Shown: positions 27,503 through 57,537 of the stretch, one piece after another | How the letters are laid out: every line of letters starts with the position of its first letter | Numbering within the stretch: the first letter of the stretch is position 1 | From: Falsiroseomonas oleicola | GTDB lineage: Bacteria > Pseudomonadota > Alphaproteobacteria > Acetobacterales > Acetobacteraceae | Direction: 5' to 3' | Assembly: GCF_019029495.1 (NCBI RefSeq) | Contig: NZ_JAERQM010000004.1 | Coordinates: forward strand, 248,294 to 312,293 | DNA length: 64,000 nucleotides | Notes under the pieces: generated by a model | The model's database searches: none | What the model was told of the DNA's origin: nothing | The model's input: only the letters and a program-made list of their open reading frames with translations | Translations under genes and position numbers: made by a program

Positions 27503-27513
27503 ATGCTGCCCTC

Positions 27514-27615
27514 AAGTGCCGGGCGCGCGCTCCGCGCGCTTGGCTCGCCGCATAAGCGGCGGCGCCCGTTCGGGCGCTCGGCCAGGCCAAAGCGGCCTGG
27601 CCGCGGGTGGCACTT
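27514..27615 (-). repeat. Multi-hairpin intergenic element, copy 1
   Basis: Read on the minus strand, an outer 7-bp inverted repeat (AAGTGCC 27609-27615 and 27514-27520) encloses four hairpins: D, a 9-bp stem (27580-27602); A, a 6-bp stem with loop GAAC (27562-27577); B, a 6-bp stem CGCCGC/GCGGCG with loop TTAT (27546-27561); then unpaired AGCCAA; and C, a 6-bp stem with loop GGA (27525-27539), followed by GCCCGGC. The same order, loops and linkers occur at 53121-53205 with different but paired stem sequences. It lies between an SDR gene and glk. No T-run follows any hairpin. Family not recognised; structured RNA, REP-like element or composite terminator are the options. Confidence 0.8.
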
Positions 27616-27629
27616 TACCATCAAGCAGG

Positions 27630-28382
27630 TCAGAAGGTTGCCCTCCCGCCGCTGATATCGAAGGCCGCGCCGGTCGAGAAGGAACAGTCCGGCGAGGACA
27701 GCCAGCAGATCAAGGCGGCGATCTCCTCCACCTCCACGAAGCGGCCCATCGGGATCTTGGACAGCATGAAGGCGATATGCGCCTCCGTCATCTGGTTGAA
27801 GATGTCGGTCTTGGCGGCCGCCGGCGTCACGCAGTTCACCAGCACGTTCTTCTGCGCCAGTTCCTTCGCCAGCGACTTGGTCAGGCCGATCAGCCCGGCC
27901 TTGCTGGCGGAGTAATGCGCGGCGTTCGGATTGCCCTCCTTGCCCGCCACGGAGGCGACATTGACCACGCGGCCCCAGCCATTCGCCACCAGATGCGGCA
28001 CCACCGCCTGGCAGACCAGGAAGGGCGCGGTCAGGTTCACCTCCACCACCCGGCGCCATTGCGCGGCGGGGATCTCGGTGACCGGCATGTTGCCGCCGGT
28101 GATGCCGGCATTGTTGACCAGGATGTCGATCTTGCCATGGGCGGCGACGGTCTTGGTCGCCGCCTCCGCCACCGCCAGTTCATCCGTCAGGTCCAGCACC
28201 TGGGCGGAGACGGCGCCATCGGCGGCCAGCGCGGCGCGGCTTTCCTCGGCCTTGGCCGGGTCGGCGTCCCAGATCGAGACGGCGGCGCCCGACTGGATCA
28301 TGCGCCGCGCCACGGCAAGCCCGATGCCGCGCGCGCCGCCGGTGACGACGGCGACGCGGCCCTGAAGGTCCAGCTTGTTCAT
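27630..28382 (-). CDS. SDR-family oxidoreductase (3-oxoacyl reductase-like)
   Basis: A 250-aa classical short-chain dehydrogenase/reductase. TGGARGIGLAV is the NAD(P)-binding glycine motif, NNAGITGG the structural motif, and Ser in NVASVAG with Tyr-x-x-x-Lys in HYSASKAG the catalytic set. The closest style is the 3-oxoacyl-ACP reductase/2-deoxy-gluconate dehydrogenase group; substrate unknown. It lies 16 bp after another SDR gene in the same direction, so the two probably share a transcript. Confidence 0.85.
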   Translation of the reverse strand: MNKLDLQGRVAVVTGGARGIGLAVARRMIQSGAAVSIWDADPAKAEESRAALAADGAVSAQVLDLTDELAVAEAATKTVAAHGKIDILVNNAGITGGNMPVTEIPAAQWRRVVEVNLTAPFLVCQAVVPHLVANGWGRVVNVASVAGKEGNPNAAHYSASKAGLIGLTKSLAKELAQKNVLVNCVTPAAAKTDIFNQMTEAHIAFMLSKIPMGRFVEVEEIAALICWLSSPDCSFSTGAAFDISGGRATF

Positions 28383-28398
28383 TGCAGACGCCTCCTCC

Positions 28399-29145
28399 CT
28401 AGCCCCGCCCGACGAAGGGCATCTTGCTGGCCATGATGGTCATGGTCAGCACATTGGTCTCCAACGGCCAGGCGGCCATCTGCGCCACGGCGCGGCCGAC
28501 ATGGTCCACCTTCATCAGTGGCTCCGCCTTGATGGTCCAATCCGCCTGCGGCACGCCCTTGGCCATGCGCTCGGCCATCGGGGTCGCGGCATTGCCGATG
28601 TCGATCTGGCCGACCGCGATGTCGAAGCGGCGGCCATCCAGGTTCATCGACTTGGTCAGCCCGGTCACCGCATGCTTGGTGGCGGTATAGGGTGCGCTGC
28701 CCGGCCGCGGCGCATGGGCGCTGATCGAGCCGTTGTTGATGATGCGCCCGCCCATCGGCGACTGCTTCGCCATCATGCGGAAGGCCGCATGGGCGCAGAG
28801 GAACACGCCGTTGAGATTGACATTCACCACCTTGAACCACTGTTCGGCCGTCAGCTCCTCGAACGGCGTACCGGGCACGTTGTTCCCGGCATTGTTGAAC
28901 AGCAGGTCCAGCCGCCCGAACTCTTTCTCGAGTGTGGCGAAGGCGGCGTCGATCTGGGCCGGTTCGGTCACGTCGGCGGGAACCACCAGGGTCTTGCCCC
29001 CCTCGCACAGCCCGGCCGTCTCCTCCAGCGCATCGCGGCGCCGGCCGAGCAGGGCCACGGTCCAGCCATCGGCGGCCAGCGCGAGGGAGGCCGCGCGGCC
29101 CACCCCGGAGCCTGCGCCCGTCACCAATGCGTATTTCTGTGTCAT
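28399..29145 (-). CDS. SDR-family oxidoreductase
   Basis: A 248-aa short-chain dehydrogenase with [13 protein letters not shown] (cofactor motif), NNAGNNVPG, Ser in [10 protein letters not shown] and Tyr-x-x-x-Lys in PYTATKHAV. First of a two-SDR pair. It diverges from the transglutaminase cassette across 157 bp; that gap contains a 7-bp inverted repeat (GGGTGGA 29177-29183, TCCACCC 29202-29208), possibly an operator. Substrate not predictable. Confidence 0.85.
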
Positions 29146-29302
29146 TCGCGTTCCCCCTCAGCCAATCGGATGGGCAGGGTGGAGCGGCCGGGCGGGTTCT
29201 GTCCACCCGTGAGGCACCGGAGAACCATGTGCGGCCTTGCGGCACCGACCGTTCCGATGGGATAGCGGAGGGTGAATCTCCCGGCCGGACACCCCACGCC
29301 CC

Positions 29303-32300
29303 ATGAGCATCCACGCCGCGCTCACGCACCGCACCAGCTACAGCTATGACCGCCTGGTCGGCATGTCGCCGCAGCTCATCCGCCTGCGGCCGGCGCCGCA
29401 TTGCCGCACGCCCATCCTGTCCTATTCCCTGGACATCTCGCCCAAGCCGCATTTCCTGAACTGGGTGCAGGACCCGCAGGGCAATTTCATCGCCCGGGTG
29501 GTGTTTCCGGAGCGGGTGCGGGAATTCGTCGTCACGGTGGATCTGCTGGCCGACATGGCCACGATCAACCCCTTCGACTTCTTCGTGGAGCCGGAGGCCG
29601 AGAGCTTCCCCTTCACCTATGACCCGGTGCTGGCGCAGGAACTCGCCCCCTTCCGCCGCGTCACCGCGCCCGGCCCGCTGCTGGACGCCTATCTGAAGGG
29701 CATTCCGCGCGAAGCGCCGAGCACCGTGAACTACCTGGTGGACCTCAACCAGAAGCTGTCCACCGAGATCGCCTATATCGTCCGCATGGAGCCCGGCGTC
29801 TGGACGCCGGAGGAAGTGCTGGCGAACCGCAAGGGGTCCTGCCGCGACTCGGGCTGGCTGCTGGTGCAGATCCTGCGCCATCTCGGCTTCGCCGCGCGCT
29901 TCGTCTCCGGCTACCTGATCCAGCTCGTGCCGGATGTGAAATCCGTGACCGGCCCCGTCGGCACCTCGGTCGATTTCACCGACCTGCATGCCTGGTGCGA
30001 GGTCTATGTCCCCGGCGCCGGCTGGATCGGCCTCGATGCCACCTCCGGCCTATTGGCCGGGGAGGGCCATATCCCCCTGGCCGCGACGCCGGAGCCCGCC
30101 TCGGCCGCCGCCATCACCGGCGGGGTGGATGAGGCCGAGACCGAATTCGGCTTCCACATGGAAGTCCGCCGCGTCGCCCAGTCGCCGCGCGTGACCAAGC
30201 CCTACACGGAGGAGGACTGGGCGCGGATCATGGCGCTCGGCAGCCGGGTCGATGAGGCGCTGACCGCCGGCGATGTCCGCCTGACCGTGGGCGGGGAGCC
30301 GACCTTCGTGGCCGATGGCGATCGCGAGGCGGCGGAGTGGAACACCGACGCGCTGGGTCCCACCAAGCGCAAGCTCTCCGGCCAGTTGATCCGCCGCCTG
30401 CAACCCCTCTGGGCGCCGGGCGCCGCGCTGACCTATGCCCAGGGCAAGTGGTATCCGGGGGAGCCGCTGCCGCGCTGGGGCCTGCACTGCCATTGGCGCG
30501 CGGATGGGGAGCCGGTCTGGACCGACCCGGCCCTGCTCGCCAGCGACGAGGACAGCGACACCGCCACCCCCGAGGACGCCGCCGCCTTCGCCGCGACCCT
30601 GGCCAGCCGCCTCGGCCTCGACCCCGCGCTGCGCATTCCGGCGCGGGAGGATGTTCTCTACTACCTGTGGAAGGAGAAGATGCTCCCGGCCAATGTCGTG
30701 GCCGAGGATGCCAAGCTGAAGGACCCGCTGGAACGCGCCCGCCTCGCCCGGCTGTTCAGCCAGGGCCTGGCGGCCGAGGTCGGCTCCGTCCTGCCGCTGC
30801 GCCGCGCGGGCGTAGGGGAGGATCGCGCCTGGGAATCCGGCAAATGGTCCTTCCGCGATGGCGAGCTGCTGCTGGTGCCCGGCGACAGCCCCATGGGCTA
30901 CCGCCTGCCGCTGGACAGCCTGCCCTGGGCTTCCGAGGAGTCCATCGAGGCCGAGCCGGAGCCTGATCCCTTTGCCCGGCGCGAGCCGCTGCGCCCCCGC
31001 CAGGAAGGCCCGGCGCGTGCCCGCATCGTCGAACAGCCGGTGCCGGAGCCGGGGAAGGAGGAGCCGGGCGTGGTCCGTACCGCGCTCTGCGTGGAGCCGC
31101 GAGGCGGCATGATCCATATCTTCCTGCCGCCGCTGGCCGTGGTGCAGGACTGGCTCGACCTGGTCGCCGCCATCGAGGCGACGGCGCGGGAGACCGGGCG
31201 CAAGATCTTCCTGGAAGGCTACCTGCCGCCGCATGATCCGCGCCTGCTGAACTTCTCCGTCACCCCCGACCCGGGCGTGATCGAGGTGAACATCCACCCC
31301 TCCGCCAGCTGGGCCGAGACCAGCGCGCGCACCGAGACGCTGTATGAGGAAGCCCGCCAGATCGGGCTGGCGGCCGAGAAGTTCATGCTGGATGGCCGCC
31401 ATGTCGGCACCGGCGGCGGCAACCACATGGTGATGGGCGCCGCGACCCCGACCGACAGCCCCTTCCTGCGCCGGCCGGACCTGCTGAAGTCGCTGGTCGG
31501 CTTCTGGCACAACCACCCGTCGCTCTCTTACCTGTTCAGCGGCATGTTCATCGGCCCGACCAGCCAGCATCCCCGCGTGGATGAGGCGCGCGGCGATGCG
31601 GTGCATGAGCTGGAGACGGCGCTGGCCCAGGTGCCACCGATGGGCACGGATGTGCCGCCCTGGCTCACCGACCGCATCTTTCGGAATCTGCTGGTCGATA
31701 TGACCGGCAACACCCACCGGACCGAGTTCTGCATCGACAAGATGTATGATCCGGGCCGCGCCGGTGGCCGCCTCGGCCTGGTGGAGTTCCGCGGCTTCGA
31801 GATGCAGCCGCATTGGCGCATGTCGCTCGCCCAGCAATTGCTGCTGCGGTCCCTGGTCGCCGGCTTCTGGCAGCGGCCCTATGAGCGGAAGCTCATCAAA
31901 TGGGGCACCCGCCTGCATGACGACTTCATGCTGCACCACCACGCCCGCCAGGACTTTTCGGAAGTCATCGAGGAGGTGAAGGCGCTCGGCTATCCGGTCG
32001 AGGCCGAGTGGTTCGAGCCGCATTTCGAATTCCGCTTCCCCAAGGTCGGCCACATCGCCCTGCGTGGGATGGAGCTGGAACTGCGCAATGCGCTGGAGCC
32101 CTGGCATGTGCTGGGCGAGGAAGCCACCGCCGCCGGCACCACCCGCTATGTCGACAGCAGCGTGGAACGCCTGCAGACCCGCGTCACCGGCTGGGTGGAG
32201 GAACGCTTCGTCCTGGCCTGCAACGGCGCCGCCGTGCCGCTGACGCCGACGGGGACGGAGGGTGAATATGTCGCCGGGGTGCGCTTCAAGGCCTGGGCGC

Positions 32301-32578
32301 CACCCAGCGCCCTGCATCCCACGGTGCGCGCCCAGGCGCCGCTGACCTTCGATATCTGGGATAGTTGGACCGGACGCAGCCTGGGCGGCTGCCAGCACCA
32401 TGTCGCGCATCCGGGCGGCCGCAACTACCAGACCTTCCCGGTCAATGCGAATGAGGCGGAGGCGCGCCGGCGCACCCTGTTCCAGCCCTTCGGCCACACC
32501 CCCGGCCCGATGCCGGCGCCGCGCAGCCTGCCTTCCCGCGCCACGCCGCGCACCCTTGACCTGAGGCGTACCCCCTGA
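29303..32578 (+). CDS. Transglutaminase-like / DUF2126 protein
   Basis: A 1091-aa protein. The N-terminal bacterial transglutaminase-like domain has an intact triad: Cys180 (GSCRDSGW), His229 (DLHAWCEVY) and Asp245 (GLDATSG). The rest is the large DUF2126 domain with TVGGEPTFVAD, GGGNHMVMGAATP, HNHPSLSYLFSG and EFRGFEMQPH. DUF2126 is always seen beside alpha-E/ATP-grasp proteins and has been proposed to take part in peptide-bond or amide chemistry; no reaction has been shown that I know of. No signal peptide. First of a three-gene run with the ATP-grasp/alpha-E protein and a second transglutaminase. Confidence 0.9.
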   Translation: MSIHAALTHRTSYSYDRLVGMSPQLIRLRPAPHCRTPILSYSLDISPKPHFLNWVQDPQGNFIARVVFPERVREFVVTVDLLADMATINPFDFFVEPEAESFPFTYDPVLAQELAPFRRVTAPGPLLDAYLKGIPREAPSTVNYLVDLNQKLSTEIAYIVRMEPGVWTPEEVLANRKGSCRDSGWLLVQILRHLGFAARFVSGYLIQLVPDVKSVTGPVGTSVDFTDLHAWCEVYVPGAGWIGLDATSGLLAGEGHIPLAATPEPASAAAITGGVDEAETEFGFHMEVRRVAQSPRVTKPYTEEDWARIMALGSRVDEALTAGDVRLTVGGEPTFVADGDREAAEWNTDALGPTKRKLSGQLIRRLQPLWAPGAALTYAQGKWYPGEPLPRWGLHCHWRADGEPVWTDPALLASDEDSDTATPEDAAAFAATLASRLGLDPALRIPAREDVLYYLWKEKMLPANVVAEDAKLKDPLERARLARLFSQGLAAEVGSVLPLRRAGVGEDRAWESGKWSFRDGELLLVPGDSPMGYRLPLDSLPWASEESIEAEPEPDPFARREPLRPRQEGPARARIVEQPVPEPGKEEPGVVRTALCVEPRGGMIHIFLPPLAVVQDWLDLVAAIEATARETGRKIFLEGYLPPHDPRLLNFSVTPDPGVIEVNIHPSASWAETSARTETLYEEARQIGLAAEKFMLDGRHVGTGGGNHMVMGAATPTDSPFLRRPDLLKSLVGFWHNHPSLSYLFSGMFIGPTSQHPRVDEARGDAVHELETALAQVPPMGTDVPPWLTDRIFRNLLVDMTGNTHRTEFCIDKMYDPGRAGGRLGLVEFRGFEMQPHWRMSLAQQLLLRSLVAGFWQRPYERKLIKWGTRLHDDFMLHHHARQDFSEVIEEVKALGYPVEAEWFEPHFEFRFPKVGHIALRGMELELRNALEPWHVLGEEATAAGTTRYVDSSVERLQTRVTGWVEERFVLACNGAAVPLTPTGTEGEYVAGVRFKAWAPPSALHPTVRAQAPLTFDIWDSWTGRSLGGCQHHVAHPGGRNYQTFPVNANEAEARRRTLFQPFGHTPGPMPAPRSLPSRATPRTLDLRRTP

Positions 32579-32625
32579 CGGATGCACCGGCGCCGGCGGA
32601 GCATGAGCCCCCGCAGCTTGACGAA

Positions 32626-35052
32626 ATGGTGGATGGCCGCGGCCAGGTCCGCACGCATTGGCGCGGCCTGCTCGGGGCCTTCTCCTCCCTCGGCTATCCG
32701 GCGGTGGTGGAGCGCGGCCGGCGGCTCGACCGCGCCTTCGAGGAGGAGGGGGTGGCGACCGTGCTGGCCGATAGCGCCAGCCGCACCCGCCGGCCCTGGC
32801 GCTGCGATCCGGTGCCCCTCATCCTCTCGGCCCGCGAATTCGCCACGCTGCAATCCGGCCTGGCCCAGCGCGCCCGGCTGCTGGCGGCGATGCTGGACGA
32901 CCTCTATGGCCCGCAGAGCCTGCTGTCGGAAGGCGTGCTGCCGGCGACGCTGGTCTTCGGCAATCCGCATTTCCTGCGCCCCTGCCGCGACCCGGGGCCG
33001 CCCAGCTTCCCCCGCCTGACCTTCTACGGCGCCGACCTGCTGCGTGGCCCCGACGGTGTCTGGCGCGTGCTGGCTGATCGCTGCGGCGGGGCCAATGGCG
33101 TGGGCTTCGCGGCGGAGAACCGCAACCTGCTGGCCCGCGTGCTGCCCGAGGCGTTTCGCGCCGTGCAGGTCCGCTCCCTGCGGCCCTTCTTCGACACCTG
33201 GCTGGACTCGCTGCAAAGCCTGGCGCCCTCCGGCGTGGACAATCCGCGTCTCGCACTGCTGACACCGGGTGCCAAGCAGGAGACCTGGCTGGAGCATCTG
33301 TTCCTGTCGCGCGAACTCGGCCTGGAACTGGTCGAGACCGGCGACCTGACGGTGCGCGACGGCCATGTCTACCTGAAGACCCTGCGCGGGCTGCGCCGCG
33401 TCGATGTCATCCTGCGGCGGGTGAAGGGGGAGAAGTCGGACCCGCTGGAATTCGACGGCGGCGGCGGCGTGCCGGGCCTGATGCAGACCATGCGCGATGG
33501 CGCCGTCCGGGTGGTGAATGTGCTCGGCTCCATGCTGGCCGAGATGCCCGGCGCGGCGCCCTATCTGCCCGCCTGCGCCCGCGCCTTGCTGCACGAGGAG
33601 CTGGAGTTGCAGGGGTTGGAGACCCTCTGGATGGGCGATCCCGCCTCGCGCGCCCGGGTCGAGGCGGCGCCCGAGGCCTGGCGCCTGCGCTCCGCCTTCG
33701 ATCCGGGGGAATCCACCCCGCTCGGGGCGCTGGAGGTGTTTTCCGAGAAGGGCAGCGCCGCGCCCTGGATGTTCGCCGCCACCCGCCCGCTGCCACCTTC
33801 GGGCGCACCGCGCCTGGTGGGGCCGGGGCTGGAACCGGCGCCGGTGGTGCTGCGCATGTTCCTGGCGCGCGACGCCATGGGCAATTGGCAGGCCATGCCC
33901 GGCGGCCTCGCCCATCTGCTGGAGGGCGGCGGTGCCATCGCCGGCCCGCCGCCGCGCCGCGGCACCGCCAAGGATGTCTGGGTGCTGGCGGAGGATGAGG
34001 ACGACATCGTCGGCCCGGCCATGCCCCGTGGCGCACGGCTCGACATCCGCCGTTCCTCCGGCGACCTGCCCAGCCGGGTGGCGGACGACCTGTACTGGCT
34101 CGGCCGCTATGTCGAGAGGCTGGACGCGGCGGCGCGGCTGCTGCGGGCCCTGCTGGCGCGGCTGCTGCGCGGCGCGGCGATGCCGCGGGAGATCGCGGAG
34201 ATCAAGACGCTGGCCCGCTGCCTGCACGCCGCCGGCGTGATCGAGGCGGAAGCCGCCGCCAGCCCGGCCGATGGCAAGGCCCTGCCGCGCGCGCTGCTGG
34301 CCGCCGCCGGACCGGGCGGTGCGTTGCTCGGCCTGCTGGAGGCGGTGGAGCGGCCGCAGGTGGCGGTGCGGGACCGGCTGACCCATGACATGTGGGCCGC
34401 CTTCGCGCATCTGATCCAGGAAGGCCGCGCCCGACTGGTGCTGGGTGTGGAGGGGGTCGATGCGCTGTCCCAGGCGGTGACCGCCATCATCCGCTTCTGC
34501 GCCACCCTGTCCGGCATCGCGGCGGAGAACATGGTGCGCGGCGGCGCCTGGATGTTCCTCGATCTGGGCCGGCGGATCGAGCGGGCGACGGGCACGGCGC
34601 GCAACCTGGCGCATGCGCTGGACCAGCCGCCGCAGCGTCTGGAGGCGGGGCTGCGGCTGGCGCTGGAGATCTGCGACAGCGCGCTGACCTATCGCGCCCG
34701 CTACCTGGCGGCCGTGCAGCCGGCGCCGGTGCTGGACCTGGTGCTGGCCGATCCGGGCAATCCCCGCGCCTTGGCCTTCCAGCTCACCGCCGTGTCGGAG
34801 CGGCTGGCGGAGATCGCCGGGGCCGAGGACACCCTGGCCGCCACCGCGGCCAGCCTCGCCGCCCGGCCGCAGGCGCTGGTCGACCAGGTGCTGGTGGCGC
34901 CGGACATGGATGCGGCGGCGGCGGCGCTGCCGGCGGCGCTGCATGCGCTGGAGGCGGAGACGGCCGCCCTGTCCGACGCCGTGGCGCGGCGCTATGTCAG
35001 CCATGTCCGCACCCATATGCTGGGCGAGAGTGAATCCGGAACCGCCGATTAA
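32626..35052 (+). CDS. Circularly permuted ATP-grasp / alpha-E domain fusion
   Basis: An 808-aa fusion. About residues 1-470 are the circularly permuted ATP-grasp type 2 domain (RPWRCDPVPLILSAREF, DLYGPQSLL, LADRCGGANGVGFAAENR, LRRVDVILRRVKG), and about 480-808 the alpha-E helical domain (DDLYWLGRYVERLDAAARLLRALL). In most species these are two proteins or one fusion beside a transglutaminase; a peptide-modifying ligase role is proposed for the group. The only ATG is 32626, but the residues just before it (QLDE, then MVDGRG) look like part of the conserved N-terminus, so translation may begin upstream at CTG 32575, which overlaps the previous stop. Confidence 0.88.
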   Translation: MVDGRGQVRTHWRGLLGAFSSLGYPAVVERGRRLDRAFEEEGVATVLADSASRTRRPWRCDPVPLILSAREFATLQSGLAQRARLLAAMLDDLYGPQSLLSEGVLPATLVFGNPHFLRPCRDPGPPSFPRLTFYGADLLRGPDGVWRVLADRCGGANGVGFAAENRNLLARVLPEAFRAVQVRSLRPFFDTWLDSLQSLAPSGVDNPRLALLTPGAKQETWLEHLFLSRELGLELVETGDLTVRDGHVYLKTLRGLRRVDVILRRVKGEKSDPLEFDGGGGVPGLMQTMRDGAVRVVNVLGSMLAEMPGAAPYLPACARALLHEELELQGLETLWMGDPASRARVEAAPEAWRLRSAFDPGESTPLGALEVFSEKGSAAPWMFAATRPLPPSGAPRLVGPGLEPAPVVLRMFLARDAMGNWQAMPGGLAHLLEGGGAIAGPPPRRGTAKDVWVLAEDEDDIVGPAMPRGARLDIRRSSGDLPSRVADDLYWLGRYVERLDAAARLLRALLARLLRGAAMPREIAEIKTLARCLHAAGVIEAEAAASPADGKALPRALLAAAGPGGALLGLLEAVERPQVAVRDRLTHDMWAAFAHLIQEGRARLVLGVEGVDALSQAVTAIIRFCATLSGIAAENMVRGGAWMFLDLGRRIERATGTARNLAHALDQPPQRLEAGLRLALEICDSALTYRARYLAAVQPAPVLDLVLADPGNPRALAFQLTAVSERLAEIAGAEDTLAATAASLAARPQALVDQVLVAPDMDAAAAALPAALHALEAETAALSDAVARRYVSHVRTHMLGESESGTAD

Positions 35053-35922: not shown

Positions 35923-36000
35923 CGACTGTCATCATTCCGACCCTCGACGCGGCGCGGGCCGCGGCGGCAGTTTCCGCCCCCTGCCGAGAGGGAACCGCCC

Positions 36001-36879: not shown

Positions 36880-36888
36880 GCGGCGGTA

Positions 36889-38849: not shown

Positions 38850-38886
38850 GGGCTGATCCTCCTGTTCCTTGGTGTCTTGCGTGACT

Positions 38887-38901
38887 TGGAACTTGGTTCC
38901 A
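38887..38901. promoter_or_regulatory. IclR-type operator
   Basis: TGGAACTTGGTTCCA is a perfect TGGAA-N5-TTCCA palindrome, the shape described for IclR-family operators. It lies in the divergent intergenic region, 38 bp from the receptor start and 41 bp from the preferred start of the IclR-SMP-30 gene, so one site could control both arms. Confidence 0.6.
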
Positions 38902-38941
38902 CGATATGGACACGAACGAAATCGGTCAATCGGGGAGAGGC

Positions 38942-40651: not shown

Positions 40652-40666
40652 GGATTTTTGTCCGTC

Positions 40667-42759: not shown

Positions 42760-42813
42760 CCAAGGGGCGGGCGGTTTCGAAGCTGGCGGTATCCTTCCTC
42801 GGAGCCGCCCGCC

Positions 42814-43263: not shown

Positions 43264-43268
43264 GCGTC

Positions 43269-44990: not shown

Positions 44991-44994
44991 GTCG

Positions 44995-46770
44995 TCAGCC
45001 TTCTTCCAGTAGCGGCTCGGCCGGATCGAACACCTCCCCGGTGCCGCCATCGGTCAGGCCGATGTCGGTCAGATGCGGCCCGGCATTGCAGGCGAGCGAA
45101 ATGCCGGTGATGCCGCGGAAGATGCGATAGGGCGGCTGCCAGTCGCAGACGCGGTCCGCCGCGGCGCGCAGGGCGGAAAAATTGCGGGCGGTGAGGGCGG
45201 GGGGCGTCTCGGCCAGCAGGCCGGCGATGGGCAGCGGCAGCAGCGCCGTCACCGCGCCGTCCTGCGCCACCGCCATGCCGCCGCCCGCCGCGATCACGGC
45301 ATTGGCGGCGGCGGTCATGTTCTCCGCCGTGTCGCCCAGCACCAGCAGGTTATGGCTGTCATGGGCAATGGTGGTGGCGATGGCGCCCCGCATCGCGCCC
45401 CAGCCATCCGTCAGGCAGGTTTTTGGGAGTGCCGGCGCGCGGCCATGGCGGTGGATGATGGTCAGCACGGCATGGCCGGGCGGCATTTCGGCCACGCCAT
45501 CCGTCACCTTGACCGCCGCCTCGCCCCATTCGGTGAAGCGGGACCCGATGATGCGGCGCAGCCTCGCCTGGCCATTCCGGACGCCTTTCACATGCAGCCG
45601 AAAGGCATCCGGCGTCTGCGGCGCAAGCTTCATCGTATGCGTGGGCGCATCCACGCGACGCGCTGGCGCCGTCACCAGCGCGCCGCTGCGCGCGACAACC
45701 ACGCCATCGACCAGCACGCGATCCACCGCGACCGTGGCGAGGTCCGACAGCACCACGATGTCCGCGCGCCGCCCTGGCGCCACCAGCCCGAGATCGTCGC
45801 GCTTCAACCGCATCGCCGCATGCAACGTCGCCAGCCGGATCGCCGAGATGGGCGACAACCCGCGTGCGATGACCCGGGCAATCGTGTCGCGCAGCCCGCC
45901 CTTGGCGACCAGTTCGTCCGGAAAAATGTCGTCCGTCGCCAGCACGAGGTTCACCGGCAGCAGCGGCAGGGTGGCCAGTGCGGCGACGGCGCCGGGCAGC
46001 ACCTGGTCGTGGCTGCCGCGCAGCTCCACCGTCAGCCCCGCGCGCAGTTTCTGGAGAAAATCCTCGGCGGCGGTGATCTCGTGGTCGGAGGTGACGCCGG
46101 CCGTGACATAGGCCTGCAGGTCCGCATGCAGCAGCCCGCGCGCATGGCCGTTGACGTTCTTGCCCGCTGCCATGCCGGCGCCGACGATGCCCGTCATATG
46201 CGCCGTGCCGCGCAGTACGCCGGGCATGTCCATCACCTCCGCCACCCCGACCACCTCCGGCCAGGACAGCATTTCGGCCATTTCCGCCGCGCCGATATCC
46301 GCGCCGGCCAGTTCCAGCCCGGGGGCGGAGGGTACGCAGGACGGCGCCGCGACCAGCGTCCGCAGCGGCAGGTCGCGGGAGGCCTCGACGGCCCAGCGCA
46401 CGCCCGCCACGCCCAGAACATTGGCCAGTTCATGCGGGTCCCAGACGCAGGTGGTGGTGCCGGCGGGGACCACGACGGCGGCGTAATCCGCCGGCGCCAT
46501 GCAACTGCTCTCATAATGCAGATGGCTGTCGATGAAGCCCGGCGCCAGGAAGCGCCCCGCCACATCCTCCACTCGGGCGGAATCGGCCCGCTCGCCGGGC
46601 GGATGGACGGAGGCGATCAGCGGCCCGACGATGCCCACATCCGCCGCGCGCAATTCGCCCGTCGCGACATCCACCAGGATGCCGCCCACCAGCAGCAGGT
46701 CGAAGGGCGCCGAGCCGCGCGCGGCCTGGACGGCGCGGGCGCGGATGGCGGGATCGACGGCCTCGCTCAT
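44995..46770 (-). CDS. ade: Adenine deaminase
   Basis: A 591-aa amidohydrolase converting adenine to hypoxanthine. APGFIDSHLHYESS holds the H-x-H metal motif; WDPHELANVLG, NGHARGLLHADLQAYV, TSDHEI and LVLATDDIFPDELV complete the binuclear site; the C-terminal domain (AHDSHNLLVLGDT, NMTAAANAV) is specific for Ade. Its ATG overlaps the upstream receptor stop as ATGA (46767-46770), and 4 bp separate it from the exporter. Confidence 0.95.
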   Translation of the reverse strand: MSEAVDPAIRARAVQAARGSAPFDLLLVGGILVDVATGELRAADVGIVGPLIASVHPPGERADSARVEDVAGRFLAPGFIDSHLHYESSCMAPADYAAVVVPAGTTTCVWDPHELANVLGVAGVRWAVEASRDLPLRTLVAAPSCVPSAPGLELAGADIGAAEMAEMLSWPEVVGVAEVMDMPGVLRGTAHMTGIVGAGMAAGKNVNGHARGLLHADLQAYVTAGVTSDHEITAAEDFLQKLRAGLTVELRGSHDQVLPGAVAALATLPLLPVNLVLATDDIFPDELVAKGGLRDTIARVIARGLSPISAIRLATLHAAMRLKRDDLGLVAPGRRADIVVLSDLATVAVDRVLVDGVVVARSGALVTAPARRVDAPTHTMKLAPQTPDAFRLHVKGVRNGQARLRRIIGSRFTEWGEAAVKVTDGVAEMPPGHAVLTIIHRHGRAPALPKTCLTDGWGAMRGAIATTIAHDSHNLLVLGDTAENMTAAANAVIAAGGGMAVAQDGAVTALLPLPIAGLLAETPPALTARNFSALRAAADRVCDWQPPYRIFRGITGISLACNAGPHLTDIGLTDGGTGEVFDPAEPLLEEG

Positions 46771-48338
46771 CGCGCGGCGCGCCCGGCGCTGAAGGCCAGC
46801 GTCATCTCATCGGTCCGCGCCTCATAGGTGAAGCCGCGGCGCAGCGCCCAGGTGTTCACCGGGAAGTACAGCGGGATCAGCGCCGTCTGGTCGACCAGCG
46901 CCATCCGCGTCGCCTGCTGCGTCAGCGCGCGGCGCTGGTCGTCATGGATGGTGGTGCGGGCGCGCTGGATGATGGCGTCGATCTCGGGGTTGCTGAACCG
47001 CCCGCGATTGGCGGTGCCGAGGCCGAGCGTCGTGTTCCAGCTATGGATCTGCGTCTCCAGCATCCCCAGCAGTTCCGGATTGGGCGAGAAGCCGGCGAGG
47101 TTCACCGAATAGCGCAACTGCGCCGCCTCGCTCAGCCACATGGATCGCGTCTTGGTCTCCACCGTGGTCGCCAGGCCGAGGCGGGTCCACATCTGGGCGA
47201 TGGCCTGCACCACCTGCTCGTCATTCGGGTAGCGGTCATTCGGGCCGTTGATCTGCACGGCAAAGCCGTTGGGATAGCCTGCCTCGGTCAGCAGGCGCCG
47301 CGCTTCCGCCAGGTCGAAGGGCGGCGGCGTCATATCGGGGGAAGTGCCGAAATAGCCGGGCGGGCCGAGGTCGCCGGCCGCCAGCGCCTGACCCTGCATG
47401 GTGCGGCTGACGATGGCATCCCGGTTGATGGCCAGCGACAGGGCGCGGCGGACACGCGGGTCGCGCAGCGGATTGTCGATGCGCGCGCCGTCGCGGCCGC
47501 GGATGAAGGGGCTGTCCACACGGTCGCTGTCCAGCGTCAGGAAGATCAGGCGGTTGGAGGGGCTTTCGGCGGTGGCGAAGCGCGCCGTATCGGCCTTGAA
47601 GCGGGTGAAGGCGTCGGAGGGCACGATCTCGATCATGTCCACATCGCCGGCCTGAAGCGCGGCGGTGCGGGCGCCGGCATTGGGGATGGGGCGGAATTCC
47701 ACGCGCTGGAAGGCGGGGGCGGCGCCGGCGAAGGCGGGGTTGCGCTCCATCACCACCGGGCTGCCCGGCTGCCAGGAGACATGGCGGAACGGCCCGGTGC
47801 CGACCATGGCGCGGCCGGCATTGTAGTCCGCCGTGCTCGCACCCTCCCCATGCCGCTTGGAGACGATCATCACCAGCGCCAGGAAGTTCGGCAGCAGCGG
47901 TGTCGGCTGGCTGGTGCGGATGTGGATGGTGGTCGCATCCACCGCCTCCACCGCCGTGATCGGCCGCGTGGCGTAGCGGAAGGAGGAGGGGGAGTTCGGC
48001 ACGTCCCCGGCGCGGCTGATGGTGAAGGCGATATCCTCCGCCGTCACCGGCGCGCCGTCATGGAAGCGGGCGGCGGGGTTGAGCTTCACCTCCCAGGTCA
48101 GCTCGTCGATCGGGCGCAGGGATTCGGCGATGGCCGGACGCAGGTCCTGCTTCGCGTCCTGTTCCATCAGCGGTTGGAAGACGTGGCGCGCGAAGGCGAT
48201 GTTGGTGATGAGGCTGGCGAAATGCGGATCGAGGCTGGTCGGCCCGGCCTCCACGCCGATGCGGATATTGTCCTGCGCCAAGGCCGGGGTGGCGATCAGG
48301 GCGGTGCCGAGCAAAGCGGCGCGAAGCTGGCGGATCAT
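46767..48338 (-). CDS. ABC transporter substrate-binding protein, family 5
   Basis: A 523-aa peptide/nickel-type (family 5) receptor. Signal peptide to about residue 22 (ALIATPALAQ), then IGVEAGPTSLDPHFAS, EVKLNPAARFHDGAPVTAEDI and the ALSLAINRDAIV region. Coupled by ATGA to both neighbours (46767-46770 and 48335-48338), but no permease or ATPase genes lie beside it, so it borrows others or they are elsewhere. Sitting between adenine deaminase and a phosphoribosyltransferase, it may bind a nucleobase or nucleoside-related compound. Confidence 0.9.
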   Translation of the reverse strand: MIRQLRAALLGTALIATPALAQDNIRIGVEAGPTSLDPHFASLITNIAFARHVFQPLMEQDAKQDLRPAIAESLRPIDELTWEVKLNPAARFHDGAPVTAEDIAFTISRAGDVPNSPSSFRYATRPITAVEAVDATTIHIRTSQPTPLLPNFLALVMIVSKRHGEGASTADYNAGRAMVGTGPFRHVSWQPGSPVVMERNPAFAGAAPAFQRVEFRPIPNAGARTAALQAGDVDMIEIVPSDAFTRFKADTARFATAESPSNRLIFLTLDSDRVDSPFIRGRDGARIDNPLRDPRVRRALSLAINRDAIVSRTMQGQALAAGDLGPPGYFGTSPDMTPPPFDLAEARRLLTEAGYPNGFAVQINGPNDRYPNDEQVVQAIAQMWTRLGLATTVETKTRSMWLSEAAQLRYSVNLAGFSPNPELLGMLETQIHSWNTTLGLGTANRGRFSNPEIDAIIQRARTTIHDDQRRALTQQATRMALVDQTALIPLYFPVNTWALRRGFTYEARTDEMTLAFSAGRAAR

Positions 48339-49030
48339 GCGGCGTGGTCCTCGGCGGGAAGGGGCAGGCAAAGGTGATGCGGCACCGTCCCGGCCTCCGG
48401 CAGCCAGCCGGCGGGGGAGGGGCGGAAGATGGGGGTGGCGAAGGCGGCGCGGGTCGGGATGGTGACCGGCCAGGTGGCCTGCCAGCGATGGCCCTGTGCC
48501 ATGGCGACCAGCAGCCCCACGGGCGTGACGCCGGCCGCGGCCAGCAGATCGAGTCCCGCCAAGGCGGAGGTCCCGGTGGAGATCACATCATCCACCAGCA
48601 GCACGCGCCGCCCCGCCAGCCGGTCCAGGATGCGGGGATCGAGCCAGAGCCGGCGCGGGGTGGGGGAGGTGATGGAATGGACCGGCACGGAGAGCCGTTC
48701 CTCATACCAGCGTTTCCGCGACCAGCCGGGCGCCACCCAGTTCGCATGGCCCAACGCTTCCGCCACCAGGGGCGCGAAGACCTGGCCGAGGCTGGGCAGG
48801 CCGACCACCACCTCGGGCTGCAAGGGCCGGGCGGCCTCCGTCATGAAAGCGGCGAGGCGGCGGATGACCGGAAAACTGGCCTGGTTGGCGATCAGCCCGG
48901 CCACGGCGAAATCCGAGAAATCGCGCAGCGGCAGGTCCAGCACCGCGCCATCCGGCATCGGTGCCGGGTAGCTCTCGCGATAGGGCGCGCGCGAGGCCGG
49001 CGGCGCGCCAAAATGCTGCCAATACGCCAT
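48335..49030 (-). CDS. Phosphoribosyltransferase
   Basis: A 231-aa type I phosphoribosyltransferase. VLLVDDVISTGTSALAG is the PRPP-binding motif; EVVVGLPSLGQVFAPLVAEAL forms the preceding loop. Start at 49030 (MAYWQHFGAP). The base specificity is not readable, but with adenine deaminase downstream and a nucleoside hydrolase nearby a purine is likely. First gene of a four-gene minus-strand unit ending with the LysE-type exporter. Confidence 0.85.
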   Translation of the reverse strand: MAYWQHFGAPPASRAPYRESYPAPMPDGAVLDLPLRDFSDFAVAGLIANQASFPVIRRLAAFMTEAARPLQPEVVVGLPSLGQVFAPLVAEALGHANWVAPGWSRKRWYEERLSVPVHSITSPTPRRLWLDPRILDRLAGRRVLLVDDVISTGTSALAGLDLLAAAGVTPVGLLVAMAQGHRWQATWPVTIPTRAAFATPIFRPSPAGWLPEAGTVPHHLCLPLPAEDHAA

Positions 49031-49105
49031 CCGGGATCCATTGGGTGTGCGGCGGCAAACTGCCATGCTCGGCGGGTCAACCGCAACCGGCGGAGCGCGT
49101 GCCGC

Positions 49106-49690
49106 ATGCTGCCCAACCTGTTCCACGCCCAGGCCTGCAACAACGCCTGGTCCAACCACCGCCTGCTGAAGGCCTGCGCCGGGTTGGCGCCGGAGGAACT
49201 CGCCGCCCCGCGCAGCGGCTTCTTCCCCAGCCTGATCGCGACGCTGAACCACATCCTCATCGTCGACTGGTTCTATGTAGATGCGCTGGAAGGCGGCTGG
49301 CTCGGCCCGGCCGCCTGGGCCGACCGAGTCCCCCATCCGGACCTTCCCGGGCTGCGCGCGGCGCAGGCGGCGGTGGACCGGCGGCTGGTGGCGCATTGCG
49401 CCGGGCTGGACGACGCAGCGCTGGCCGCCATCGTCCGCGTGAACCGCGACACGCGCGTGCAGGAGGAACGGCGCGACCGGCTGCTGCTGCACCTGTTCCA
49501 GCACCAGATCCATCACCGCGGCCAGGCGCATGCCATGCTGTCCTCCACCCTTGTGAAGCCACCGCAGCTCGATGAATTCTATTCGGTGGCGGAGGCGCCG
49601 CTGCGCGCCGCGGAATTCGCCGCATTGGGGTTTTCCGAGGAGGCGATCTGGGGGCCAGGAAATGCTATGCCGCCTGCCTCCACCGCCTGA
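49106..49690 (+). CDS. DinB-family protein
   Basis: A 194-aa four-helix-bundle protein of the DinB/YfiT family. The three metal-binding histidines are in LNHILIVDW and in FQHQIHHRGQAH (His-x3-His). Many relatives are thiol-dependent S-transferases or hydrolases; the substrate here is unknown. It diverges from the phosphoribosyltransferase across 75 bp and is followed closely by the M20 amidohydrolase. Confidence 0.85.
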   Translation: MLPNLFHAQACNNAWSNHRLLKACAGLAPEELAAPRSGFFPSLIATLNHILIVDWFYVDALEGGWLGPAAWADRVPHPDLPGLRAAQAAVDRRLVAHCAGLDDAALAAIVRVNRDTRVQEERRDRLLLHLFQHQIHHRGQAHAMLSSTLVKPPQLDEFYSVAEAPLRAAEFAALGFSEEAIWGPGNAMPPASTA

Positions 49691-49702
49691 GGCGCGCGCA
49701 CC

Positions 49703-50872
49703 TTGCCCAGCCCCGACGACTTCGCCTCCCGCCTGCCGGAACTGACCGCCTGGCGCCAGGATTTCCACCGCCATCCGGAACTCGGTTTCGAGGAACACCG
49801 CACTGCCGCCCGCGTCGCCGAACGGCTGCGCGGCTGGGGCATCGCGGTGACGGAGGGCATCGCCGGCACGGGCGTGGTCGGCACCCTGCAGGGCCGTCCC
49901 GGTAATCGCGCCATCGGGCTGCGCGCCGATATGGACGCGCTGGCGATGACGGAGGCGACCGGCCTGGACTATGCCAGCGAGACCCCCGGCCGGATGCATG
50001 CCTGCGGCCATGACGGCCATACCACCATGCTGCTGGGCGCCGCCGAATGGCTGGCTTCGAACCGCCACCGCTTTGCCGGCACCGTCCAGCTCATCTTCCA
50101 GCCGGCCGAGGAATCGCTCGGCGGGGCGCGGGTGATGGTGGAGCAGGGGTTGTTCGAGCGCTTTCCGGTCGATGCCGTCTACGGGATTCACAACCTGCCC
50201 GGCCTGCCGCTCGGCACCATCGCCGTGCCGAAGGGGCCGGTGCTGGCGAGTTCCGACACCTGGGAGGTCACCTTCACCGGCGCCGGCACCCATGGCGCCA
50301 AGCCGCATCTCGGCACCGATGCCACCCTGGCCGCCGCGCAGTTCATCACCGCCCTCCAGGCCATCGCGGCGCGGGAGGTGGACCCGCTGGCCACCGCCGT
50401 GGTCAGCGTCGGCCATATGGCGGCCGGCAACCCGGCGGCGCCCAATGTCATCCCCGCCACCGTCTTCCTGAAGGGCACCGCCCGCGCTTTGACCGAGCCG
50501 GTGCGCGGCCAGATCGAGGCCCGCATCGGCGAGATCGCCCAGGCCGTCGCCACCCTGCACCGGCTGCGGGCCGAACCGCGCTACATCCGCCGCCTGTCCC
50601 CCACGGTGAACCACGCAGCGCAGGCGGCGGTGATGGTGCAGGCCGCCACCGGCACGGCGGCGGCGGTGCAGGACGACCATCCGCCGATCACCGCCGGGGA
50701 GGATTTTTCCGAGTTCCTGGCGGCGCGCCCCGGCGCCTATGCCTGGCTCGGCACGGGCGACCCGGCGCATCCCGAGGGCGTCCATCACAATCCGCATTTC
50801 GACTTCGCCGATGCCGCGCTGCCGCATGGCGTCGCCTTCTGGTGCAATCTGGTGGAGCGGGAACTCGCATGA
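49703..50872 (+). CDS. M20-family amidohydrolase (hippurate hydrolase-like)
   Basis: A 389-aa metallopeptidase-fold amidohydrolase. DFHRHPELGFEEHRTA, MHACGHDGHTTMLLG, FQPAEESLGGARVM and the late GEDFSEF give the two-metal site and catalytic Glu. It acts on N-acyl or aromatic amides of amino acids by family. Start TTG 49703 (LPSPDDFASRL) 12 bp after the DinB stop; no ATG lies near the conserved N-terminus. Stop overlaps the nucleoside hydrolase start as ATGA. Confidence 0.88.
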   Translation: MPSPDDFASRLPELTAWRQDFHRHPELGFEEHRTAARVAERLRGWGIAVTEGIAGTGVVGTLQGRPGNRAIGLRADMDALAMTEATGLDYASETPGRMHACGHDGHTTMLLGAAEWLASNRHRFAGTVQLIFQPAEESLGGARVMVEQGLFERFPVDAVYGIHNLPGLPLGTIAVPKGPVLASSDTWEVTFTGAGTHGAKPHLGTDATLAAAQFITALQAIAAREVDPLATAVVSVGHMAAGNPAAPNVIPATVFLKGTARALTEPVRGQIEARIGEIAQAVATLHRLRAEPRYIRRLSPTVNHAAQAAVMVQAATGTAAAVQDDHPPITAGEDFSEFLAARPGAYAWLGTGDPAHPEGVHHNPHFDFADAALPHGVAFWCNLVERELA

Positions 50873-51798
50873 GCGCGCGGCTGACGATCATCGATTGCGA
50901 CCCGGGCACGGATGACGCCATCGCGCTCTGGCTCGCGCTGGCCGCGCCGGAGTTGGATGTGCGGCTGGTGACGGTGGCCGGCGGCAATGTCGGGCTGGCC
51001 TCCACCACGACCAATGCGCGCGCCATCGTCGGGCTGACCGGGCGGGACATCCCCGTGGTGGCCGGCGCCGAACGCTCCCTGATGGCGCCGTTCCGCTTCG
51101 AGACGGCGGTGCATGGGCAGGATGGGCTCGGCGGCGTGACCTTGCCGGTGGGCCCGCCGCTGGCGCCCGGCATCGCGGCGGATGCGATCCGCGACCTGCT
51201 GCGCGCTGCCGCACCGGCCTCCGTCACCGTCATCGGCCTCGGCCCTGTCACCAACCTGGCGCTGGCCTTCGCGACGGAGCCGGCGCTGGCGGGTCGGGTG
51301 GCGGAGATCGTGCTGATGTCCGGCGCCTGGTCCGAGGGCAACATCACCCCCGCCGCCGAATTCAACGCCTGGAACGACCCGGAGGCGCTGGCCATCCTGC
51401 TCGGCCTGGGCTGCCAACTCACCATGGCGACGCTCGACCTGACCGCCCAGGCTTTTGTCACGCCCGAGGTGGTGGCGGCGCTGGAGGCGCGGCCCGGCGG
51501 CGCCTGCTGGCGCGCGGCCACCGCCATCCTGCGCGCCCTGCCACCCTCCCGCCGCATGGGTTTCCGGGGGTTTCCGCTGCACGATCCCTGCGCGGTCGCC
51601 TGGCTGCTGGCGCCTGGGCTGTTCGGCGCGAAGGAGGCGCAGGCGGAGGTGGATTGCGGAACCGGCCCGGGGCGTGGGCGCACGGTGATCGACCGCTGGC
51701 AGCGGCTCGGCCGGCCGCCGAACCTGCGGCTGCTGGAAACGCTGGATGCGGCGGGCTTCTTCGACCTGTTGGCGGAGCGCATCGCGACGCTGCCCTGA
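50869..51798 (+). CDS. Inosine-uridine-preferring nucleoside hydrolase
   Basis: A 309-aa nucleoside hydrolase. The calcium/ribose motif DCDPGTDDAIALWLA opens the protein, with NAWNDPEALAILL and a late LHDPCAVAW completing the site. It splits ribonucleosides into ribose and base, feeding the deaminase and phosphoribosyltransferase on the opposite strand. Translationally coupled to the amidohydrolase by ATGA (50869-50872). Confidence 0.92.
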   Translation: MSARLTIIDCDPGTDDAIALWLALAAPELDVRLVTVAGGNVGLASTTTNARAIVGLTGRDIPVVAGAERSLMAPFRFETAVHGQDGLGGVTLPVGPPLAPGIAADAIRDLLRAAAPASVTVIGLGPVTNLALAFATEPALAGRVAEIVLMSGAWSEGNITPAAEFNAWNDPEALAILLGLGCQLTMATLDLTAQAFVTPEVVAALEARPGGACWRAATAILRALPPSRRMGFRGFPLHDPCAVAWLLAPGLFGAKEAQAEVDCGTGPGRGRTVIDRWQRLGRPPNLRLLETLDAAGFFDLLAERIATLP

Positions 51799-51867
51799 TC
51801 CTCTTCAGGATGCGTCAATGCCGGCGGGGCCACTCTACGCGGCTCAGGATCAAGGGGCGACAGCGTG

Positions 51868-53112
51868 ATGAACCGGCCAAGGCCCCTTTTGCGGCTGCTG
51901 ATGCTCGCCCTGTTGCCGGTGCTCGGTGCCTGCGCCGGCATCACCCGCAATGCCGTGCCGACCGAACTGGCCAATGAGGCGCAGCCGCTGGGCATCCCCG
52001 GCCTGCGGGTCTGGGGCGATGTGCTGGAACCCAATGCGCTGGATGCGCTGGTGGCGCGCCAGGCCGGCATCCTGCGGACGCGCTACGGCGCGCAGGCGGC
52101 GGCGGGGCAGATGCCGGTGCTGCACTACCTGGCCTTGTCAGGCGGCGGGCCGGACGGGGCCTTCGGCGCGGGCGTGCTGAAGGCCTGGTCGCAATCCGGC
52201 ACGAGGCCGCAATTCGCCGCCGTCGCCGGCGTCAGCACCGGGGCCATCATCGCCCCCTTCGCCTTCCTGGGATCGGACTACGATCCGGTGATCGAGGAAA
52301 TCTACACCACGCTGCGCACCAGCCAGGTCGCCCGCAGCACCGTGCTCAGCGGCCTGGTCTCCGGCGTGGCGCTGACGGATACGACAGGGCTGGCCAACCG
52401 CATCGCCCATTACGTCGATGCCGCGCTGCTGGCGAAGGTCGCGGCGGAATACCGGCGCGGCCGGCTGCTCTTCGTCGGCACCACCAATCTCGACTACGGC
52501 CGCCCGATGATCTGGAACATGGGCGCCATCGCCGCCTCCGGCCATGCGGGCGCGGTGCAGCTGTTCCGCGATGTCATCCGCGCCTCCGCCGCTGTGCCCA
52601 TCGCCTTCCCGCCGGTCTTCATCCCGGTGCAGACCGCCGATGGGCGGCGGTTCGACGAAATGCATGTGGATGGCGGCGCCACCTCCCAGGTCGTGCTGAT
52701 CTCGCCGCAGGTGCCGATTGCGGCGCTGACCCGGCAGCAGATCGGCCGCAACATCGACCGGCGGATGTGGGTGATCGTCAACAACCGGGTGCTGACCGAC
52801 CACGCGCCGGTGCGGCCGCGCATCTTCTCGGTCGGCGGCGCCTCGATCAGCGCGCTGATCCGCGGCAGCGCCATCGGCGACCTGTACAAGCTTTTCCTGA
52901 TCGCCGAGCGGGACGAGGTGGAATTCCGCGCCGCCTGGATCCCGCGCCAGGTGCCCTGCACGGCGACCGAGGAATTCGACCCGGTCTATATGCGCTGCCT
53001 GTTCGACTTCGGCGCGGCGGAACAGCGGCGTGGCGCCTTGTGGAGCGACCTGCCGCCCTATTTCGTCCGTCCGCCGCTATCGCCCATGCGCGTGGGCAAC
53101 GCGACCAACTGA
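51868..53112 (+). CDS. Patatin-like phospholipase lipoprotein
   Basis: A 414-aa protein with a lipoprotein signal (MNRPRPLLRLLMLALLPVLGAC, lipobox LGAC, Cys about residue 22; the peptide is split here at Cys). The patatin domain has the oxyanion motif GGGPDGAFGAG, the nucleophile Ser in GVSTGA and the dyad Asp in HVDGGA. Predicted lipid acyl hydrolase at the cell envelope. ATG 51868 is preferred to the GTG three bases before it. Its stop codon touches the first base of the multi-hairpin element. Confidence 0.88.
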   Translation: MNRPRPLLRLLMLALLPVLGACAGITRNAVPTELANEAQPLGIPGLRVWGDVLEPNALDALVARQAGILRTRYGAQAAAGQMPVLHYLALSGGGPDGAFGAGVLKAWSQSGTRPQFAAVAGVSTGAIIAPFAFLGSDYDPVIEEIYTTLRTSQVARSTVLSGLVSGVALTDTTGLANRIAHYVDAALLAKVAAEYRRGRLLFVGTTNLDYGRPMIWNMGAIAASGHAGAVQLFRDVIRASAAVPIAFPPVFIPVQTADGRRFDEMHVDGGATSQVVLISPQVPIAALTRQQIGRNIDRRMWVIVNNRVLTDHAPVRPRIFSVGGASISALIRGSAIGDLYKLFLIAERDEVEFRAAWIPRQVPCTATEEFDPVYMRCLFDFGAAEQRRGALWSDLPPYFVRPPLSPMRVGNATN

Positions 53113-53249
53113 TAACAGCGGACCGGTCTCTTGGCCGGTCCGAGCGGCCGAACGGCCGCCGCCGCTGATGCGGCGAAGCCAAGGAAACCGGAGGTTTCCG
53201 CCCGGCGATTGAGGGGACCGGAGCGGTCACGCGGAAGGGCCGCTGTTAT
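53112..53249 (+). repeat. Multi-hairpin intergenic element, copy 2
   Basis: A perfect 10-bp outer inverted repeat (ATAACAGCGG 53112-53121, CCGCTGTTAT 53240-53249) encloses hairpins in the same order as copy 1: D (GACCGG/CCGGTC, 53121-53140), CGA, A (GCGGCC, loop GAAC, 53144-53159), B (CGCCGC, loop TGAT, 53160-53175), AAGCCAAG, C (GAAACC, loop GGA, 53184-53198), then CGCCCGGC. A fifth hairpin (GACCG, loop GAG, CGGTC, 53216-53228) is extra. It fills the gap between convergent genes. Stems A, C and D differ from copy 1 yet remain paired. Confidence 0.8.
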
Positions 53250-53259
53250 GACCCCGGCC

Positions 53260-57399: not shown

Positions 57400-57537
57400 G
57401 CGTATTTTTCCCTTGCGGGCGGTTTTGTGGTGCCTGTCTCATCGCCAGGGCAGCCGGATGCGGCAGCCCCCGTCGCGCGCCGGATCGTCGCAGTCCGCGA
57501 CGCGGCCTTCCATTGCCCGCGGCGCATGGATGCCCGT

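Follow-up and report, generated by a model that had tools for sequence, protein, structure and literature searches.

The genome of Falsiroseomonas oleicola contains, within a stretch of 64,000 nucleotides that we call the window (contig NZ_JAERQM010000004.1, positions 248,294 to 312,293), two multi-hairpin features on opposite strands, at 27514–27615 (minus) and 53112–53249 (plus). A first-pass annotation, made from the letters of the window, read them as two copies of an unnamed element and left the question whether this is a structured RNA, a REP/RAYT-type repeat or a transcript-end structure. Very probably, the two belong to a single family of non-autonomous miniature inverted-repeat transposable elements (MITEs), mobilised by an ISAli3-like transposase of the IS630 family of insertion sequences (IS) and inserted at TNA triplets. 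The novelty is the covarying three-hairpin core of these elements, which recurs across the class Alphaproteobacteria.

Two copies of one dispersed repeat

On direct reading and in the alignment, both copies contain the hairpins D, A, B and C in this order and have in common the loops GAAC (A), TNAT (B) and GGA (C), the linkers GA and (A)AGCCAA, and the word GCCCGGC; their stems differ, each still pairing with its own partner strand, just as the annotation had described. The stems themselves were given correctly with two corrections in copy 2, where stem C is GGAAACC/GGTTTCC and stem D is GGACCGG/CCGGTCC. The outer inverted repeats that had been noted around both copies turned out to be the element's own terminal inverted repeats in copy 2, TAACAGCGG...CCGCTGTTA (53113–53248), which stand between TGA at 53110–53112 and TGA at 53249–53251, whereas the repeat AAGTGCC/GGCACTT around copy 1 is probably incidental. 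The insert of copy 1 spans 27502–27629, between TGA at 27630–27632 and TGA at 27499–27501. The parts of the two copies are as follows:

53110–53112, plus: left target-site duplication TGA of copy 2, which is the stop codon of the gene ending at 53112 (supported by the identical TGA at 53249–53251 and by family statistics)
53113–53248, plus: copy 2, complete element of 136 bp, with the ends TAACAGCGG and CCGCTGTTA; RNA fold z –3.9
53113–53141, plus: left terminal inverted repeat of copy 2, itself folding as hairpin D (GGACCGG 53120–53126, CCGGTCC 53135–53141)
53144–53159, plus: hairpin A of copy 2, GCGGCC GAAC GGCCGC (model alignment)
53160–53175, plus: hairpin B of copy 2, CGCCGC TGAT GCGGCG (model alignment)
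53176–53182, plus: conserved linker AAGCCAA of copy 2
53183–53199, plus: hairpin C of copy 2, GGAAACC GGA GGTTTCC (model alignment; hairpin C survey)
53200–53216, plus: conserved tail of copy 2, GCCCGGCGATTGAGGGG
53220–53248, plus: right terminal inverted repeat of copy 2 (region E), with TGACC at position 20 reading inwards
53249–53251, plus: right target-site duplication TGA of copy 2
27630–27632, minus: left TGA of copy 1, which is the stop codon of an SDR-like gene (27630–28382)
27502–27629, minus: copy 1, inserted segment with worn ends, absent at the same gene junction in the congeners G001, G002 and G007
27580–27602, minus: hairpin D of copy 1, GGCCAGGCC GCTTT GGCCTGGCC (read directly)
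27562–27577, minus: hairpin A of copy 1, GCGCCC GAAC GGGCGC
27546–27561, minus: hairpin B of copy 1, CGCCGC TTAT GCGGCG
27540–27545, minus: linker AGCCAA of copy 1 (read directly)
27525–27539, minus: hairpin C of copy 1, GCGCGC GGA GCGCGC
27508–27524, minus: tail of copy 1, GCCCGGCACTTGAGGGC, with GAGGG at 27513–27509, 6 bases before the glucokinase-like ATG at 27502–27500
27499–27501, minus: right TGA of copy 1, the TG of which forms the ATG of the next gene together with the element's last A

A strict consensus pattern matched nine places in the genome of the window, including both window copies, and its reversed form matched none. Seven of the nine places, window copy 1 among them, were used to build a covariance model of A, B, C and the tail; L003 and L008 (window copy 2), in which stem C is one pair longer, were left outside the seed. 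The two window copies scored 97.7 and 81.8 bits (E 1e-23 and 1.7e-19), and chance resemblance is excluded. A third match in the window was weak (57469–57547, minus strand, 15.5 bits, E 0.09), and no recognisable element was found there on reading.

Further copies in this and related genomes, which the annotation had named as a check, are abundant: within the 5.6-Mb genome of the window the model gave 125 matches (E ≤ 0.01; 150 candidates scored), and it gave 40–92 matches in each of 14 congeners (14/14, with at most 127 candidates scored per genome). At E ≤ 0.001, 19 of 39 relatives were matched, own genome included; three of 16 genomes from other families were among them, and one of eight genomes from other genera of the same family had a single weak match. 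A class-wide sample under stricter filters (E ≤ 1e-5, own genome included) yielded matches in 25 of 289 genomes, belonging to 19 of 224 genera, and a pattern scan of named genomes returned at least 117 stretches with the core. The genera among the matches listed are Roseomonas, Falsiroseomonas, Neoroseomonas, Roseococcus, Azospirillum, Niveispirillum, Nitrospirillum, Magnetospirillum, Paramagnetospirillum, Telmatospirillum, Terasakiella, Erythrobacter, Qipengyuania and others. In Roseomonas-type genomes the family fills the space between genes, and it is found again in Azospirillum, Magnetospirillum, Niveispirillum, Erythrobacter and others. A viral collection contained 62 stretches with the core pattern, and a 104-base query from copy 2 gave no blastn match among plasmids and phages. 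Comparison with Rfam, the other check that had been named, detected no family at gathering threshold in the window (Rfam 15); a sensitive scan of both copies reached best E values of 0.94 and 0.97, well below the family thresholds, and in 20 loci from relatives tRNA was the only family at threshold. One tRNA gene (L078:1587–1660) directly adjoins an element copy, and the own-genome copy L006 is next to a sequence that looks like the 3' end of a tRNA.

Variants of the layout were also seen. On the phage-like contig IMG/VR 2708742415_000004 (47.9 kb; L312, L351, L353), the core is matched exactly at 21 places, spread over three stretches; many of these matches are in tandem, with spacings of mostly 90–116 bp. 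Tandem copies at a spacing of 99–105 bp occur in L010, L013, L144, L153 and G006:C4:705738–706016, as if slippage expanded the inner unit, and L086 and L088, from another family of the class, hold a related core in tandem, apparently without A and D. The tail is split after GCCCG by a similar extra hairpin (TCACGCC...GGCACGA) in L146, L170, L173, L178, L179, L185, L186, L192 and L023, and an extra hairpin lies within B in L176, L183, L188, L190 and L192, so that modules are nested.

Element ends, target duplications and insertion sites

The layout of the whole element (terminal inverted repeat, A, B, linker, C, tail, terminal inverted repeat) was revealed by genome G033, where near-identical copies stand at 16 places, six of them contig ends (17 rows, since L054 repeats L093). 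The ends were analysed in core-anchored copies that have a single candidate end on each side; 42 remained once copies with no candidate or more than one had been dropped. These end-bearing copies are mostly 135–170 bp long (35 of the 42 measure 134–169 bp) and run from TACCA to TGGTA. Identical flanking triplets were found in 22 of the 42, all of the form TNA, compared with 7.0 expected and a maximum of 15 in 2000 shuffles. After removal of duplicates, TGACY stood at offset 20 in 37 of the 82 ends of 41 elements and in no more than four at any other offset. The duplicated TNA adjoins element ends that begin with TA, and the matching IS630 elements described below likewise duplicate TNA. Whichever of the four bases N is, TNA reads as a TGA or TAA stop codon on one of the two strands, and this target rule therefore fits insertion at gene ends.

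Comparison with congeners shows that copies are present in some species and absent from others. At the gene junction of copy 1, four congeners were resolved: the site is empty in G001, G002 and G007, and G009 has unrelated sequence. In the empty junction, the stop codon of the SDR gene shares bases with a TTG, the apparent start codon of the glucokinase-like gene. In the window (27499–27632), the insertion separated the formerly overlapping genes, kept the stop, and provided a new ATG with GAGGG six bases ahead of it, which by its sequence may act as the ribosome site of the glucokinase-like gene. Copy 2 is absent from G001, which has unrelated sequence at its place, and in G007 worn element-like sequence was seen there by eye. 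Both flanks of 12 own copies were located in 884 kb of G001, where five copies are shared, five sites are without the element and two have incomplete flanks; this ratio is rough, as for three of the 12 (L011, L012, L034) the locus had been fetched on account of an element or flank match. The features of MITEs that were observed are terminal inverted repeats, target-site duplication, short non-coding dispersed copies and insertion polymorphism between relatives.

Genes around the copies were called with a simple codon-usage caller trained on the window, neighbouring tandem copies being counted separately. By these calls, 94 of 97 own copies are intergenic (two overlap a call, one is undecided). 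Forty of the 94 lie between convergent genes, 28 in sense and 22 in antisense orientation between tandem genes, and four between divergent genes; the other neighbouring gene pairs of the same partly overlapping stretches, a local and not a genome-wide baseline, comprise 19 convergent, 43 divergent and 185 tandem pairs. Among 68 copies with an upstream stop that faces the element, 17 have this stop at either of two recurrent distances from the core, 29 bases in ten and 48 bases in seven, the next commonest distance occurring three times. At distance 29, a recognisable element end directly follows the stop in eight of the ten; at distance 48 the ends are worn, and the stop probably marks the element border there as well. 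Two of the 17 upstream stops are TAG and not TNA.

A candidate transposase of the IS630 family

A search with NF033545 found an IS630-family copy in the own genome (C2:4433–5602, 1170 bp) that is flanked by TGA/TGA and has the ends TACCAACGG...TTGACT and TACCGACGG...TTGACC. The ISAli3 copies on three plasmids of Azospirillum lipoferum have the ends TACCAGCGGC...TGACT/TGACC, each between TTA/TTA, and an IS630-family element of Skermanella rosea carries the motif at the same offset in both ends and is flanked by TGA/TGA. The offset of TGACY in the miniature elements is also that in both ends of the own-genome IS630 copy, of ISAli3 and of the Skermanella element. In a scan of 20 loci, six had TACC ends together with equal TNA triplets. 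In an alphaproteobacterial metagenome-assembled genome (L249), an IS630-family gene, recognised by Pfam DDE_3 and by NCBIfam NF033545 in two pieces that are each below the model cut-off, lies between ends of the same type, beside an end-sharing palindrome and a core element. No core match was present inside the six IS630 elements with mapped ends. A 10-base end pattern matched 53 places in the own genome versus 12 for its reversed form and gave no IS-length pair, because the right end of the IS differs by one base. A mover of the IS5/IS1031 type, considered for its TNA target, was dropped once the IS630 elements showed the same ends and duplications.

The shared ends and target suggest that the mover is an IS630-type transposase. 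In the mechanism that we propose, an ISAli3-like IS630 transposase would recognise the bipartite ends (TACCA, then TGACY at position 20), mobilise the element and insert it at a TNA triplet, which would be duplicated. Since TNA is always TGA or TAA on a strand, insertion at the stop of a gene would leave the protein intact, and the target thus suggests how a transposon may land on stop codons with little harm. Selection would purge copies from genes and promoters, so that the remaining copies would be intergenic, above all between converging genes.

Several observations weigh against mobilisation by IS630. Equal flanking triplets are missing in 20 of the 42 end-bearing copies, and both short end motifs are kept in only eight of 97 own copies. 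The transposase frame of the own-genome IS630 copy is broken into pieces, and among 30 IS630 loci scanned (L482–L511) only this element, represented by two overlapping loci, had such ends and equal triplets. One of the 20 loci scanned above (Roseomonas mucosa) has TACGG ends with TAA/TAA and 13 have neither feature; the G015 relative is flanked by TAA/TAA but carries AGACT/TAACC in place of TGACY, and the flanking triplets of the L249 element are unequal, TAA and TTA. In 16 of 31 element-bearing genomes, including G033, G066 and G103 with their many alike copies, NF033545 had no match at E ≤ 1e-10, which could be explained by lost, divergent or frame-broken genes. Small palindromes share the element ends without containing the core; such palindromes with TACCAACGG ends occur in L028 and L180 (about 33 bp in both) and at L249:1775–1877 (about 103 bp). 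Finally, the IS630 target reported for the pneumococcal repeat RUP, to which we return below, is TA (PMC3049150, PMC2229807), and here it is TNA.

Covariation of the core and competing explanations

Covariation was analysed in an alignment of 99 matches at E ≤ 1e-5 from 87 own-genome stretches, corresponding to 96 distinct rows. Standard pairs occupied 98.5% of the paired cells (75.7 in shuffled data), double changes numbered 317 (shuffled 98.7) and the covariation score was 0.471 (shuffled 0.100); pairing was at most 62% when the partners were slid by one to three columns. As a model alignment leans towards its model, hairpin C was retested with anchors in the flanking words only. This yielded 388 distinct copies with 160 different hairpin sequences, in which 2295 cells were Watson-Crick pairs, 33 G-T, 19 A-C and 81 other; when an arm was combined with the opposite arm of a different sequence of the same length, only 51% paired. 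The loop of hairpin C was GGA, GGAT, GGAC, GGAG or GGAA in 358 of the 388. Covariation, for which the annotation had asked a statistical test, is therefore abundant by shuffles as well as by arm swaps, and together with the model matches it strongly supports a dispersed structured repeat in which the stems change but stay paired and the loops are nearly fixed. Within the own genome, the most constant parts are GAA of the A loop (93–98%), the linker AGCCAA (94–99%), GGA of the C loop (92–98%) and GCCCGGC (88–98%); the most variable stem positions go down to 38%, and three of the four B-loop positions (43–61%), the last A-loop position (71%) and parts of the tail (55–65%) vary as well.

Selection on structure is a plausible cause of the paired changes, although template switching or exchange between copies can also keep palindromes paired. 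A purely mutational origin, by hairpin-templated correction or inter-copy exchange, with the core as passive cargo of the element, is a serious contender to which we give somewhat less than even weight. In three copies shared with G001 (L012, L143, L169; the long B of L169 excluded), eight pairs changed on both sides and three on one side, as counted by eye. In hairpin C of shared copies several pairs were altered at once, and exchange between copies or templated repair is therefore compatible with the data; the differences in stem C at the orthologous loci L143 and L169 are of the kind that these processes predict. The palindromes that share ends without the core and the variability of the B loop and of the last A-loop position point in the same direction. 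Against a mutational process, the most variable stem positions are much less constant than the loops GAA and GGA, the linker AGCCAA and GCCCGGC, and the same words recur in other families of the class. The 388 hairpin C copies with their 160 sequences represent a natural data set to separate selection on structure from palindrome-preserving mutation.

With lower confidence, we consider that the single-stranded form of the core, RNA or DNA, is recognised by something. More specifically, the core might be a functional structured RNA or extruded single-stranded DNA that has long been kept in Alphaproteobacteria on miniature elements with ends tracking the local IS630-type transposons, its loops (GAAC/GACC, NNAT, GGA) and linkers being read by a host or transposon factor; this proposal is tentative, and we regard it as rather unlikely.

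A conserved regulatory RNA such as a leader, a small RNA or a 3' stabiliser, repeated by happenstance, would agree with the strong covariation, the near-fixed loops and predicted RNA folds that are far better than those of shuffled sequences, and G-T mismatches are slightly more frequent than A-C mismatches in hairpin C (33 vs 19, p 0.07). Across A, B and C the corresponding numbers are 19 and 12 (p 0.28), with eight of the 12 A-C mismatches in one column pair. Such an RNA is nevertheless improbable, since both strands of both window copies fold well, the copies show no strand preference relative to same-strand neighbours (28 sense vs 22 antisense, p 0.48), Rfam gave no match at threshold, and the insertion signatures and the presence or absence of copies between congeners speak for a mobile element.

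Bidirectional transcription terminators between converging genes, akin to the transcript-end structure of the annotation, might account for the 40 of 97 copies in this position but are very unlikely: a scan of the copy 2 region (52900–53500) for intrinsic terminators, defined as a G+C hairpin followed by a T run, returned no site, strand bias is lacking, and the two genes on either side of copy 1 are on the same strand and overlap in three congeners. The least credible explanation is a REP/BIME repeat moved by a Y1 (RAYT) transposase, which would suit high-copy intergenic palindromic repeats enriched at gene ends and a Y1 gene in six of 24 element-bearing genomes outside the genus, compared with one of 15 genomes that had either no element or a single weak match, but for which the genus offers no mover within the reach of the PF01797 model (0 in the own genome, 0 of 14 congeners, hence 0 of 15). 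REPs are not known to have target duplications or inverted terminal repeats, both of which are present here.

Comparison with known systems

The element family can be compared with several described repeats. In the open-licence literature, no paper on the element family was among the matches listed for sequence words or topic, none was found that names ISAli3, and a publication on REP finding mentioned no such element under the terms searched. Among alphaproteobacterial repeats, Br-REP1 and Br-REP2 of Bradyrhizobium are likewise intergenic and palindromic, but their printed consensus sequences, compared by eye, are unlike that of the element (PMC5082802). CIR of Caulobacter and Brucella, intergenic repeats of about 110 bp, resemble it in having hairpin arms and a linker and differ in their conserved GANTC (PMC2229807), which occurs in only one of 97 cores here. 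BOX of Streptococcus pneumoniae is, like the element, a modular, tandem-expanding, structured non-coding repeat with IS-like ends, but has another sequence, host group and proposed mover (ISSpn2; PMC3049150). ISAli3 of Azospirillum lipoferum 4B shares the bipartite ends (TACCA, TGACY at position 20) and the TNA duplication, whereas ISAli3-type elements are about 1.17 kb long and contain a transposase gene. RUP of S. pneumoniae, a 107-bp intergenic repeat with 108 copies and ends like those of an IS630-family element, is proposed to be moved in trans by IS630-Spn1 (PMC2229807, PMC3049150) and is similar in being short, intergenic, present in about 100 copies and bounded by IS630-like ends. No internal functional motif has been reported for RUP, whereas the element described here contains a conserved three-hairpin core.

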